From Bosea vaviloviae (GTDB lineage Bacteria > Pseudomonadota > Alphaproteobacteria > Rhizobiales > Beijerinckiaceae): 64,000 nucleotides of DNA. Made by a program: the position numbers and the translations under genes. The notes under the pieces are model-generated. The model was given only the letters and a program-made list of their open reading frames with translations, was not told where the DNA came from and did not search any database. The stretch is from contig NZ_CP017147.1 in the NCBI RefSeq assembly GCF_001741865.1, positions 6,253,001 through 6,317,000 of the forward strand, in the 5' to 3' direction. Positions 46,923 to 50,675 of the stretch are shown piece after piece. Positions within the stretch are counted from its first letter, which is position 1. The number at the start of each line of letters is the position of its first letter.

Positions 46923-47007
46923 ACGTGGGTCCGAGTATGAATATCAAACACCCTCCGGCCCCTCGGGGGAAGCGAGGGGCCGGATCAATGCGGGCCATGC
47001 TTGCCAC

Positions 47008-47307
47008 TCAGTAGAGCGAGCAGACCTTGCGGTAGCCGACGACCTCGCCGAAGCGGTTGACGCGCTCGACCATCTCGCAGCGACGCACCGGAGCATCCTC
47101 CTCATAGACGGGCTCGGCATAGGCGCGGTTGGCGGAGGCCGCGAGCAGGCCGCCGACGGCGAGCGCTCCGACGATGCCGGCGCCGACGCCCCAGCCATGG
47201 CCGCGATGGCGCGGATACGCTTCGGCGCTGCCCGCGCCGGCGAGAATGGCGGTGGAGAGGGTGAGGGCGGCCAGAGCGGCGGTCGCGGTCTTCTTGAAGC
47301 TGGTCAT
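47008..47307 (-). CDS. Small secreted glycine-rich protein, function unknown
   Basis: A 99-residue protein with a signal peptide (MTSFKKTATAALAALTLSTA, cleaved near GSAEA). A His/Gly/Arg-rich patch (PRHRGHGWGVGAGIVGALAV) and a C-terminal pattern with two cysteines follow (RRCEMVERVNRFGEVVGYRK then VCSLY). Proteins of this shape are frequent in Hyphomicrobiales and have no assigned role. The ATG at 47307 is chosen because of the signal peptide and GGGAGATACC upstream. A longer frame to 47361 is not supported. Confidence 0.75.
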   Translation of the reverse strand: MTSFKKTATAALAALTLSTAILAGAGSAEAYPRHRGHGWGVGAGIVGALAVGGLLAASANRAYAEPVYEEDAPVRRCEMVERVNRFGEVVGYRKVCSLY

Positions 47308-47440
47308 GATGGTATCTCCCGAGGTCCAGTCGGCGGCGAACCATTCGCCCTCCATGAGCATTGGTCGCGGCGGGGCGTTGAGAGGTTCAAAGGGAGGCGA
47401 TTATTTTTTCGGAGGCTCGATCCGCCCGAACAACCTCGCC

Positions 47441-47477
47441 GTCATCCCGGACAAGCGCCGAAGCCGCGCAGATCCGG
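47441..47477. repeat. Left half of a family A palindrome, interrupted by IS110 element
   Basis: It begins CGTCATCCCGGACAAGCGCC and stops at GATCCGG, exactly where the intact copy at 4352 goes on with AATCCATC. The other half resumes at 48588 beyond the insertion sequence. Confidence 0.85.
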
Positions 47478-47496
47478 CAACTGTGTTGTTTGGTGG

Positions 47497-48423
47497 TCAT
47501 GATTGGAATGCGGTGCGGGTTTTGAGCATGGCGTTGAGGGTTACGAGGAGCTTTCTTGCGACGGCGATGATGGCGACCTTGGCGGCGCCGCTTCGGGCGC
47601 GGATGGCGTCGTAGAAGGTCTTGAAGCGCGACGATGTCCGGATGGCTGCGAGGGCTGCCATGTAGAGGGCTTTGCGGACGCGCCGCCTTCCGCCCTTGAT
47701 CATGCGCTGTCCGCGCCTGCGCCCGCTGTCGTTATTGAAGGGGGCGAGGCCGGCGAGTGCGGCGACGGCCTTTGGCGAGACGTGTCCGAGCTCGGGCATC
47801 AGGGCGATGAGGGTGGCGGCGGTGACGGGTCCCACGCCAGGGGCCGAGCGCAGCAGGGCTTGCGCCCTGGCCAGCGTCTCGTCGGCCTGCAGGGCTTCAT
47901 TGACGAGGCGCTCGAGCGTGACGATCTCGGCGTCGAGCCAGGCGAGATGACGGGCCAGACTGCCGGAGGGATCTTTTCCTTCGCTGTGGCGGACGCGCTC
48001 GGCGGCGCGCATCTCGACGAGCTGGTCGCGGCGTTTGTGAAGCTGCGCCAGAGCGTTGCGGGCAGGGTCGCAAGCCGGGTCGGGCATGAGCGCGAGGGCG
48101 CGCGCCATCGCCGCGAGCATCTCGGCGTCGATCGTATCGGTCTTGGCCAGGCGGCCGGTGGCGCGGGCGAAGTCGCGGGCGCGCCCCGGGTTGATCCGGG
48201 CGAAGCGGCAGCCCGCCTGCTCCAGGGCCTGGCGCAGCATGCGGTCATAGGGGCCGGTCGCCTCGAAGGCGATGAAGCAGGCCTGGGCGTCGAGAGATGA
48301 CAGCCAGGTCGCGATCGCCTCGCTCGTATTGGCGATCCGAAGGCTCGTCCCGCTCGTCTCATCGAACAGGTCGAGATGGCTTTTGGCGATATCGCAACCG
48401 ATGAAGCAGGGGTGTATGGTCAT
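47497..48423 (-). CDS. IS110-family transposase (DEDD/serine recombinase)
   Basis: A 308-residue RNA-guided-type recombinase. The RuvC-like DEDD residues are visible as Asp11 (FIGCDIAKSHLDLFD), Glu54 (FEATGPYD), Asp96 and Asp99 (KTDTIDAEML). The C-terminal Tnp_20 domain has RSAPGVGPVTAATLIALMPE and Ser233 in APFNNDSGRRRGQRMIKGGR, which aligns with the catalytic serine region of the family. No frameshift or stop is present, so it is probably active. The start at 48423 follows AGGCACC, and a longer frame to 48471 runs into the structured non-coding end. Confidence 0.93.
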   Translation of the reverse strand: MTIHPCFIGCDIAKSHLDLFDETSGTSLRIANTSEAIATWLSSLDAQACFIAFEATGPYDRMLRQALEQAGCRFARINPGRARDFARATGRLAKTDTIDAEMLAAMARALALMPDPACDPARNALAQLHKRRDQLVEMRAAERVRHSEGKDPSGSLARHLAWLDAEIVTLERLVNEALQADETLARAQALLRSAPGVGPVTAATLIALMPELGHVSPKAVAALAGLAPFNNDSGRRRGQRMIKGGRRRVRKALYMAALAAIRTSSRFKTFYDAIRARSGAAKVAIIAVARKLLVTLNAMLKTRTAFQS

Positions 48424-48560
48424 GGTGCCTGTCCCTGTGCTGCGAGGTCCGGTGCAAGCGGCCTCGGTCAACTGTTCAGGATGGGGTCTGCAAAGGCGGG
48501 CGGGAGCCGAGCCGGAACACGGTGTTCACCACCTGGGATCCAACGGCTTCCCGCCCGCTC
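48424..48560 (-). ncRNA. Candidate bridge RNA of the IS110 element
   Basis: Read on the minus strand, this segment forms two stem-loops. The first has a perfect 10-bp outer stem (GCGGGCGGGA with TCCCGCCCGC) and an inner AGCCG/CGGCT stem, closing a loop with TTGGATCCCA on one side and GTGTTC on the other around a GGTG/CACC hairpin. The second has a CGAGG/CCTCG hairpin flanked by GAACAGTTGACC and GCACAGGGAC. TGGATCCC and GTTCCGG match the two sides of the target (the second at 6 of 7), and ACAGTTG and CACAGGG match the element ends. Transcription is not shown by the sequence. Confidence 0.65.
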
Positions 48561-48587
48561 CAATCATGACACACACCAAACACACAG

Positions 48588-48670
48588 GGATCCATCGGAG
48601 GGCCAATCCTATAAAGGGCCTGGCTCTATGATGGATCCCGAATCTCCACTTCGCTGCGTCCGGGATGACG
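48588..48670. repeat. Right half of the interrupted family A palindrome
   Basis: Starts GGATCCATCGGAGGGCC and continues through GGCTCTATGATGGATCCCG to GTCCGGGATGACG. Joined to 47441-47477 it restores a normal palindrome of about 120 bp between the small secreted protein gene and the S8 protease gene. Confidence 0.83.
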
Positions 48671-48696: not shown

Positions 48697-50610
48697 TCAG
48701 GGCCGCGCCGCCGAGACCGGCAGCGTCCGCGCCAGGGCGGCCGGCGCATCGACGCGGCCGGCACCGAAGATCGGGTTGCGGCCCTTGCCGCCGAGATCGA
48801 TAGCGCTCTCCATCAAGAGCTTGCGCACGCCTTCCAGATCGAGGTCCGGGCGCTTTTCCAGGAGCAGCGCCACCAGCCCCGAGACATGGGCGGCCGCGAT
48901 CGAGGTGCCTGAGGAGAAGGCGTAGCGCCCCTCCGGCTCGGCCGCGAGCACATCGACGCCCGGCGCCGCGACCGCGATGTAGCTGCCGCGATTGGCCTGT
49001 GCGAAGGGCTTGTCCTGGGCGTCGGTTGCGGTGACGGCGATGACGTTGGGATCGGCGCCGGGATAGAGCGGGGCTGCATTCGCGCCGCCATTGCCGGCGG
49101 CCGCGACCGCGACCATGCCCTTGGTCTTGGCCCCAGCGAGCGAACGCGACAGCAAGCGGTCCTGCGGCCCGGCAAAACTCAGATTGACCACCCGCGCCCC
49201 CTCCCCCGCCGCCCAGTCGAGCGCCGAGAGGATGTGGTAGGTCGTGCCGTTGGCCGAGGCCGGAGCGCTGTTGCCGGAAAAGGCGCGCGCCGCGAGCAGG
49301 CGCGCAGCCGGCGCGACGCCCTGCAACTGCGCCTGCGCCATGATGGCGCCCGCCATCGCAGTGCCATGGGCATGGGGCGTGGTATCGCCGCCAACCGCGT
49401 CGAAACTGCCGGCGAGCACGCCCTGCAGTTCGGGATGAGCCAGATCCGCGCCGGAATCGATCACCGCCACGCGGATCTTTTCGCCACGCGCCAGTTTGTG
49501 GATGGCGTCGTAATGCAAGGTCTCGGCGACGTATTGCGGCTGCAATTCGCGCTTGGGCGCGACGGAGGCCAATGGCACGACCGGCGGCAATTCGGGCGAT
49601 GCGATGACGGGCGGAGCGGCCAGGACCGGCGCCGCATCCTCAGGTTTCGGCAGCGAGGCGACAGGCTCGGCGGCAGCGCTTGCAGCTTCAGGCACGGCTT
49701 GTGCGGCCTCGTCCTTGGGCGCTTCCGGCCTCAGTGCATCCTGCTGGAGCGTATAGAGGTAATTCGGCTGCGCGCTGGCGACGCGGGCATCGCCCGCCAT
49801 CTGCGACAGCACCGTGCGGGCGCTGCGGCCATCGTTCAAACGCGCCCGGATGATGGTCACGCCCGCCAGATCGAAGCGGCGGCTCGACATCAAGGTGGCG
49901 CGATGACGGCGCAGGACGGCATCGGCTTGAGCATTGGGCGCCAGCTCGACCAGGATCTCGTCGGCCACGAAACGGCGTTCGCTCGCGGCCGGGACGATGA
50001 TGGGCGGTTGCCCGGGGGTGGGGCGCGCCGTCTGCACCGGGGGCGGCGTCCGGCGCGCTGGCGCGGCAGCGCGCAGCGGAGCCGGCCGGCGCGGATGCCG
50101 CAGCACCGGCTCGTCGAGATCGTCACCGTCGAGGATGACCGGCCGCCTCGGCCGGCGCGGCAAAACCGGCTCGGGCTCATAAGGATCATAGACCGGTCGC
50201 CGCGCCGCCTGGTCGAGGATGATGCCGCCGATGATCCCGGCACCGATGCCGGCCGCGGCAGGCCCCCAGCCACCGCCTCGGCCCGGATAGCGCGGCGGGC
50301 GGCCAGGCCGCCCGGTCTCGACGCGCCCGCCTCGGCCGGGATAGGCGCGGCCGGCATCGGTGCCGGGATAGGTGCGGCCGGGTACGGCGCTCTCACGGGA
50401 TGTTGGAATCGCGGTTTGGCTGCGCAGCGCCGGCTGGGCGCGCGTGACGCCCTGCCGCGTCGCCGGATAGTTGAACTCGCGCCCGCCATAGGTCTGGGCG
50501 CCGAGCTCACTGACAGGTGCGATCAGGCCGAGCAGGAGCGCCAACGCGGCGCCATGCCGAAGGCGCAGACCTGCGCGGATACTGACGAAGCGATCGACAA
50601 AGCGTGACAT
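48697..50610 (-). CDS. S8 family (subtilisin-like) serine protease
   Basis: A 637-residue secreted protease. The first 35 residues form a signal sequence, then comes a Pro/Arg/Gly-rich low-complexity region, then a propeptide-like domain (FVADEILVELAPNAQADAVL onwards). The catalytic domain has Asp385 in RVAVIDSGADLAHPEL, His415 in HAHGTAMAGAI and Ser570 in FSSGTSIAAAHVSGLVAL, with the oxyanion asparagine in VAAAGNGGANA. All essential residues are present. It lies directly downstream of an anti-sigma and ECF sigma gene on the same strand, so it is probably the output, or the activating protease, of that stress circuit. The GTG at 50613 is an alternative start. Confidence 0.9.
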   Translation of the reverse strand: MSRFVDRFVSIRAGLRLRHGAALALLLGLIAPVSELGAQTYGGREFNYPATRQGVTRAQPALRSQTAIPTSRESAVPGRTYPGTDAGRAYPGRGGRVETGRPGRPPRYPGRGGGWGPAAAGIGAGIIGGIILDQAARRPVYDPYEPEPVLPRRPRRPVILDGDDLDEPVLRHPRRPAPLRAAAPARRTPPPVQTARPTPGQPPIIVPAASERRFVADEILVELAPNAQADAVLRRHRATLMSSRRFDLAGVTIIRARLNDGRSARTVLSQMAGDARVASAQPNYLYTLQQDALRPEAPKDEAAQAVPEAASAAAEPVASLPKPEDAAPVLAAPPVIASPELPPVVPLASVAPKRELQPQYVAETLHYDAIHKLARGEKIRVAVIDSGADLAHPELQGVLAGSFDAVGGDTTPHAHGTAMAGAIMAQAQLQGVAPAARLLAARAFSGNSAPASANGTTYHILSALDWAAGEGARVVNLSFAGPQDRLLSRSLAGAKTKGMVAVAAAGNGGANAAPLYPGADPNVIAVTATDAQDKPFAQANRGSYIAVAAPGVDVLAAEPEGRYAFSSGTSIAAAHVSGLVALLLEKRPDLDLEGVRKLLMESAIDLGGKGRNPIFGAGRVDAPAALARTLPVSAARP

Positions 50611-50675
50611 CACCTTCGCCCTCTTTCAGGTTTCACGATAGCACAACCGCTGTTTCGGCAGCGCATGATGCGGTG

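Follow-up and report, generated by a model that had tools for sequence, protein, structure and literature searches.

The window analysed here, a 64,000-nucleotide stretch of the Bosea vaviloviae genome (NZ_CP017147.1, positions 6,253,001 to 6,317,000), contains an apparently intact insertion sequence of the IS110 group, whose features all lie on the minus strand (Table 1). Its transposase gene is free of inner stops and ends only 19 bp from the right end of the element. The encoded protein contains the DEDD_Tnp_IS110 and Transposase_20 domains (Pfam PF01548 and PF02371) and scores 198.7 bits against the NCBIfam IS110 model NF033542, which has a cut-off of 140. Residues 7-306 align with the PDB entries for IS621 (8wt6, E 1e-35) and ISCro4 (E 9.7e-35), and D11, E54, D96, D99 and S233 align with IS621 D11, E60, D102, D105 and S241, the catalytic residues of that enzyme as given in the available text of PMC11208158; a feature that marks membership of the group, a DEDD/RuvC and Transposase_20 recombinase with a catalytic serine, is present. 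The element is neighboured by an open reading frame at 48697-50613, which by eye looks like a secreted serine protease, and by a small one at 47008-47361, both on the minus strand like the element itself. Elsewhere in the genome (L029, G000:C1:467518-467970) there is a second, 97% identical copy of the region on the right of the element (window 47000-47470).

Table 1. Features of the IS110-group element and its host site; positions are those of the window.
Feature	Position	Strand	Evidence
IS110-group element, 1111 bp including one CC core dinucleotide	47478..48588	-	Empty site L143; second copy L002 agrees
Left half of host target, ATGGATC, plus CC core	48587..48595	-	Sequence, empty site
CC core plus right half of host target (CCGGATC...)	47466..47477	-	Sequence, empty site
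IS110 transposase/recombinase, 308 aa	47497..48423	-	Pfam, NCBIfam and PDB matches, catalytic residues
Left subterminal inverted repeat	48560..48586	-	Local alignment score 43; 0/500 shuffles as high
Right end with matching subterminal inverted repeat, including transposase stop codon	47478..47506	-	Alignment, sequence
Predicted bridge RNA, target loop then donor loop, up to transposase start codon	48421..48558	-	Covariance model, covariation
Target-loop stem, 5' arm	48549..48558	-	Helix 1: both partners changed in 9/14 pairs
Target-loop stem, 3' arm	48496..48505	-	Helix 1 covariation
Left target guide TTGGATCCC (positions 2-9 equal left flank)	48535..48543	-	Covariation peak z 7.9; 44/51 insertions
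Small apical hairpin of target loop	48521..48533	-	Helix 2: both partners changed in 3/4 pairs
Right target guide TTCCGG (pairs with CCGGA of right flank)	48512..48517	-	Covariation peak z 6.6, 16 lineages
Left donor guide ACAGTTG, equals right end of element	48469..48475	-	Sequence; changes with the end in sister elements (by eye)
Donor-loop hairpin	48444..48465	-	Helix 4: 99.2% of cells paired, both partners changed in 1/7 pairs
Right donor guide CACAGGG, complementary to left end of element	48433..48439	-	Sequence; RNAalifold pairing
Candidate -10 box CATGAT of circle-junction promoter	48563..48568	-	TTGCCT across joined ends, 17-bp spacer; weak, no control

Both ends of the element are set by an uninterrupted orthologous locus (L143), which reads GATGGATCCCGGATC and whose flanks are contiguous at 93.9% and 91.7% identity; it lies in a genome (G198) whose matches and coordinates equal those of Bosea sp. 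OK403 (G149). Since this empty site reads ATGGATC-CC-GGATC, the core is CC, common to both junctions, and the insertion is clean with its shared 2-bp core. Consistent with these ends is a second copy of the element in the same genome (L002, at 3337415-3338638; 98% over the query, transposase 99%), which is flanked by ATGGATCCC on the left and CCGGATC on the right and sits in a different palindrome; neither a genome search nor the RNA covariance model described below found copies beyond these two in this genome. An earlier reading of the sequence alone (the sequence-only reading) had placed the element at 47478..48589, of which the first coordinate stands and the second lies one base inside the host, the left boundary being 48588. 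The presence of the element and every sequence named in that reading were borne out to within one base by a direct sequence check, and the host sequence that it took to be interrupted, ATGGATCCCGGATC, is the one found whole at the orthologous site. The exact 14-mer occurs at 22 sites in this genome, and its pattern read backwards at none. The CT core of IS621, a trait that we do not take as defining the group, is absent from the window element. Apparent CT cores were seen by eye in three sister IS110 copies of the same genome (L035, L036 and L037 at G000:C1:2349287, 5843590 and 2582928), which have a transposase 42% identical, a different RNA and the ends ACACAGCCG.

The long non-coding end upstream of the gene encodes a structured RNA. 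The perfect 10-bp stem proposed in the sequence-only reading is present (GCGGGCGGGA and TCCCGCCCGC), and the fold of the single copy (48424-48589) has a z of -3.12 against dinucleotide shuffles, 2 of 200 of which fold as well. In an alignment of 17 sequences (A1), the hand-drawn structure leaves 97.6% of cells paired (90.9 in shuffles), both partners have changed in 13 pairs, compared with 4.2 for shuffles, the covariation score is 0.265, compared with 0.128, and none of 500 shuffles reached any of these values; the count of further pair types was less striking (23 versus 20.1, reached by 13 of 500 shuffles). Slid versions of the structure had at most 5 pairs changed on both sides, a control that favours the structure because the latter was drawn from these same sequences. 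RNAalifold, unaided, recovered the outer target stem, the apical hairpin and the donor hairpin, and it also paired parts of both target guides together and the left end of the element with the right donor guide; the outer donor stem, which it did not draw, hardly varies and so lies outside the reach of covariation. Because a search with 4227 Rfam families at gathering scores gave no match in the window, we built our own covariance model from relatives. Based on 11 lineages outside the genus, this model found the window RNA at 132.2 bits (E 1.3e-25, 48421-48557), with the next score at 14.5. The sequence-only reading had named a covariance model as a check on its two loops, and support of this kind exists in both the stem covariation and the out-of-sample model.

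Relatives of the element were collected from 10 of 67 genomes of the genus, 3 of 149 of the family, 9 of 397 of the order and 2 of 385 of the class, in searches that used differing thresholds and counted the window's own genome; GTDB contigs contributed 12 loci, plasmids 17 records at E 1e-50 (9 of which were read), and a protein search across the class brought in one further lineage (G815). Rows were found with a pattern in which guide and flank both had to end in CC, and it skipped elements that have other cores (those of the sister type and of Sphingomonas, L086, L095). Copies identical over 60 nt on the left entered the count as one, so that at least three from Methylocystis (L072, L075 and L078) were merged, five rows were added by hand (L066, L070, L087, L096 and L198), and the row of L130 was corrected for a local duplication. 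Left out of the count were L182, which is of the sister type, L179, which has an apparent CT core and whose guide and flank agree at 8 of 10 positions by eye, and L188, whose guide ends in CG, not CC, and agrees at positions 2-8. The same applies to two further model hits in the genus: L178, in which the normal left end is missing, and L180 (G191, 58 bits), possibly a decayed copy, whose guide does not match the left flank.

In the window copy the left target guide TTGGATCCC equals the left host flank at positions 2-9 and GTTCCGG on the other side of the loop agrees with GATCCGG at 6 of 7 positions, both as the sequence-only reading had it. Among 51 insertions from 18 lineages, with 9 guide types, positions 2-9 all match the left flank in 44. 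Matches by position number 46 at position 2, 50 at position 3, 51 at position 4, 50 each at positions 5 and 6 and 49 at position 7; positions 8-9, which are CC in all 51, carry no evidence because the search pattern demanded CC, and position 1, matching in 2 of 51, is seemingly unused. The seven exceptions have one to three mismatches: three Sinorhizobium copies have one each, L165 (also Sinorhizobium) has two and its right flank fails too, L118 is the worst case with three (6/9), L115 has one, and L066 has one, a possible G-U wobble. When the nine guide types were reassigned in all 362,880 ways, the observed mean of 5.93 of 7 was reached by the true assignment alone (the next best gave 5.72), and none of 20,000 shuffles of the 18 lineages reached the observed match, figures that are not strict probabilities because the lineages are related.

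The signal sits at the guides. In a scan along the RNA with a 6-nt frame in 17 lineages, agreement with the left flank peaks at the left guide, in direct orientation (z 7.9, next 2.9), and with a 4-nt frame in 16 lineages (Agrobacterium is absent, its right end not having been caught) agreement with the right flank peaks at the right guide, as the reverse complement (z 6.6, next 3.0). The right guide is the looser of the two, with a mean of 5.23 of 6 versus 4.25 when permuted and 5 of 6 in the window. Thus, each guide of the target loop varies in step with its own flank, the left guide on one strand and the right guide on the other, the same arrangement as that published for bridge RNAs (PMC11208160, in the available text). 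Copies with this RNA, which the sequence-only reading had suggested comparing, do not sit at unrelated sequences, and its bridge-RNA interpretation is supported by covariation of guide with target and within stems, by the out-of-sample model, by the same target at the second copy and by the exact empty site. We therefore regard it as highly probable that this IS110-group insertion sequence, apparently intact, belongs to the bridge-RNA type and is RNA-guided to ATGGATC-CC-GGA.

The host palindromes occur in two subtypes, marked by ATGGATCCCGG (C-type) and ATGGATTCCGG (T-type), and the target sequences paired with the two natural guides are ATGGATCCCGGATC and ATGGATTCCGGATC. Counts of C-type and T-type sites, the former obtained by subtraction in all five genomes, are 122 and 46 in this genome, where many of the C-type occurrences inspected lie within palindromes, 205 and 67 in G195, 140 and 141 in G162, 189 and 62 in Bosea sp. 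OK403 and 362 and 39 in B. lathyri (G150). Elements with a C-guide sit in C sites in 14 of 14 cases (2 in this genome, 6 in G195 and 6 in B. lathyri), and those with a T-guide in T sites in 6 of 7 (3/3 in G162, 3/4 in OK403), giving a Fisher p of 1.3e-4 for guide type versus site type over the five genomes. Each genome alone is weak evidence for this preference, because site abundance alone would give 14/14 with a chance of 0.05, 3/3 in G162 with 0.13 and 3/4 or better in OK403 with 0.05. The sole exception is L066, a T-guide copy of OK403 that interrupts a LysR-type regulator gene at ATGGATCCC and has no inverted target copy to its left, the only side examined. T-guides may be able to use both subtypes, because the guide U could pair as well with the G present in C-type sites. 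The elements of this genome and of OK403, about 90-93% alike (measured on fragments), differ by one guide base, and the same base differs in their targets; judged from the sequences, this is natural one-base retargeting between two palindrome subtypes.

These observations bear on two other explanations of the match between guide and target. It might reflect shared ancestry only, the guide sequence being inherited in hosts with palindromes of the same sequence, and guides and host palindromes do both vary by lineage in 18 lineages that are not independent. However, insertions follow the guide within genomes that hold both palindrome types, such as G162, and the signal falls at one RNA position per flank, on the strand that pairing requires. 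In addition, the window element and that of G588, only 57% alike, have guide and target letters in common, whereas the far more similar elements of this genome and OK403 differ in both; an explanation by ancestry alone is hardly credible. It is also very unlikely, if a shade less so, that the protein recognises the palindrome, by hairpin or sequence, and that the upstream RNA is only a structured leader regulating the transposase. Most tested insertions do lie in palindromes, 38 of 46 having the left 9-mer repeated in inverted orientation, with no more than 2 mismatches, in the 150 nt to their left, and two small RNAs, together with the structure of the 5' leader, are reported in the available text of PMC8450116 to control expression of the ISPpu9 transposase. 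Yet on the left, the one side that the test covered, such a copy is missing from the other eight and also from L066, which was tested separately, with the limit that one of those eight (L125) is still palindromic by eye. L066 lies inside the regulator gene and nevertheless matches its guide at 7 of positions 2-9, and recognition by the protein does not account well for a single guide base that differs together with the same target base between this genome and OK403.

With guidance by the RNA as the preferred reading, movement of the window copy can be outlined by analogy with IS621 and ISEc21. Excision by the recombinase would release the element in circular form, and the same protein would bind an RNA transcribed from the region upstream of its gene. 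The target loop of this RNA would read the genome through the left guide TGGATCCC and the right guide TTCCGG, the donor loop would read the joined ends of the element itself through ACAGTTG and CACAGGG, and the circle would insert by recombination at the 2-bp CC core. The predicted target is ATGGATC-CC-GGA, and further copies with this RNA would be expected at sites containing TGGATCCCGG. RNA and gene might look intact in an element that no longer moves, and only two copies were found in this genome; we consider this improbable, given an intact open reading frame with its catalytic residues, an RNA scoring 132 bits and two copies at different loci whose proteins are 99% alike.

Among known systems, IS621 of the IS110 group is similar in its recombinase, which aligns nearly full length with its DEDD and serine residues, and in an upstream RNA with a target loop bearing left and right guides, a donor loop and the core dinucleotide in each pairing (PMC11208160, in the available text). 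The window element differs from it in having CC rather than CT as the core, a target in palindromes of Bosea and other alphaproteobacteria, and a longer subterminal inverted repeat in the window copy. ISEc21, also of IS110 type, likewise has an upstream non-coding region that matches both target strands; its target is different, its seekRNA is 74 nt, and donor guides are not described in the available text of that report (PMC11187229). Repeated insertion of IS110-family elements into REP palindromes was described for ISRm19, ISPa11, ISPpu9 and ISPpu10, that of ISRm19 in the alphaproteobacterium Sinorhizobium meliloti, in a 2006 report that predates the RNA mechanism (PMC1525189, in the available text), and the likeness to these elements is one of description, not of sequence. 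Bridge RNAs or seekRNAs and natural agreement between guide and target were reported in 2024 (PMC11208160 and PMC11187229), where the available text gives one case of natural redirection, ISMch6 (PMC11187229), and an analysis restricted to CT-core guides (PMC11208160). A literature search whose scope took in few subscription papers found no paper on IS110 in Bosea, and a CC-core group goes without mention in the available portions of the bridge-RNA and seekRNA literature covered, in a search not aimed at that name. The element adds no new mechanism. It is a well-supported new example, on the evidence of sequence comparison, of the bridge-RNA mechanism first described in 2024, in which guide and target change together, and its lineage, in which the core is different, puts the bridge-RNA rule to an independent test in nature. 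Intact and interrupted sites are available side by side, as are close relatives that differ by one guide base, and such natural pairs make retargeting, wobble tolerance and core choice testable.

The donor-loop guides match the element ends in the window copy, as the sequence-only reading had recognised. ACAGTTG recurs at 47478-47484, and CACAGGG is reverse-complementary to the opposite end together with the residues beside it. Within the clade the donor loop is not strongly testable, because the ends barely vary; one pair between left end and right donor guide is changed from G-C to A-U in G815 (RNAalifold), and the Agrobacterium copy departs by one base (end ACCGTTG, guide ACAGTTG). In distant sister elements, four versions of the left donor guide (ACAGTTG, ACGGTTG, ACAGCCG and ACGGTCG) were each seen by eye to be identical to the end of the element, evidence that is partly circular because several of those ends were placed with the help of the guide match and without empty sites. 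With its end 9 nt ahead of the transposase ATG, the right donor guide occupies the expected place of a ribosome-binding site (window 48421-48439), and the ATG follows at the same place in 15 of 17 aligned lineages; by position alone, the guide may overlap the ribosome-binding site. A speculative proposal, which we think has some but rather low probability, is that in the CC-core lineage one left-guide base sets the palindrome subtype, T-guides using both subtypes and C-guides one, and that RNA folding or protein binding at a right donor guide overlapping the likely ribosome-binding site shuts off translation and so limits copy number.

The subterminal inverted repeats raise the question of the IS110/IS1111 division. 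In the available text of the reports cited, the IS1111 group has subterminal inverted repeats of 7-17 bp and the IS110 group a repeat of 2-3 bp (PMC11208160), and the longer non-coding region precedes the gene in most elements of IS110 type and follows it in most of IS1111 type, though exceptions occur (PMC11187229). The window copy resembles the IS1111 group in having such repeats, which are longer and imperfect, part of the right one being the end of the coding sequence. Unlike in that group, where the RNA usually lies downstream of the gene, it lies upstream here, and we assign the element to the IS110 type because of this RNA position. The repeat scored above every one of 500 letter shuffles in four of the 17 lineages (this genome, G195, G179 and G329), was weaker in OK403 (7/500 as high) and B. 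lathyri (25/500), and in the other 11 was equalled by 76 to 495 of 500. Over all 17 lineages, one of which (G162) is represented by a copy with a shortened left end, true pairs of ends averaged 18.1 versus 15.7 when swapped between lineages, with 33 of 5000 swaps as high. We rejected the repeat as a class-defining feature, since it is patchy and strong in only 4 of 17 lineages. The suggestion of the sequence-only reading that the element blurs the usual split is thus borne out in part: a long subterminal repeat and a 5' RNA do occur together in the window copy, but the repeat is weak in 11 of 17 lineages and exceptions have already been published.

Joining of the ends in a circle would create a candidate junction promoter. 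TTGCCT spans the joined ends in 17 of 17 lineages, largely by how the ends were picked, and the best -10 match is 3 to 5 of 6 with spacers of 16-18 bp, a weak match taken without a control. Lastly, L130 (G329) carries a tandem duplication of the initial stretch of its left end, as far as the left guide, and the break of the duplication falls at a short sequence common to the guide and the host target; the match between guide and target may itself cause such slips, or the duplication may be an assembly error.
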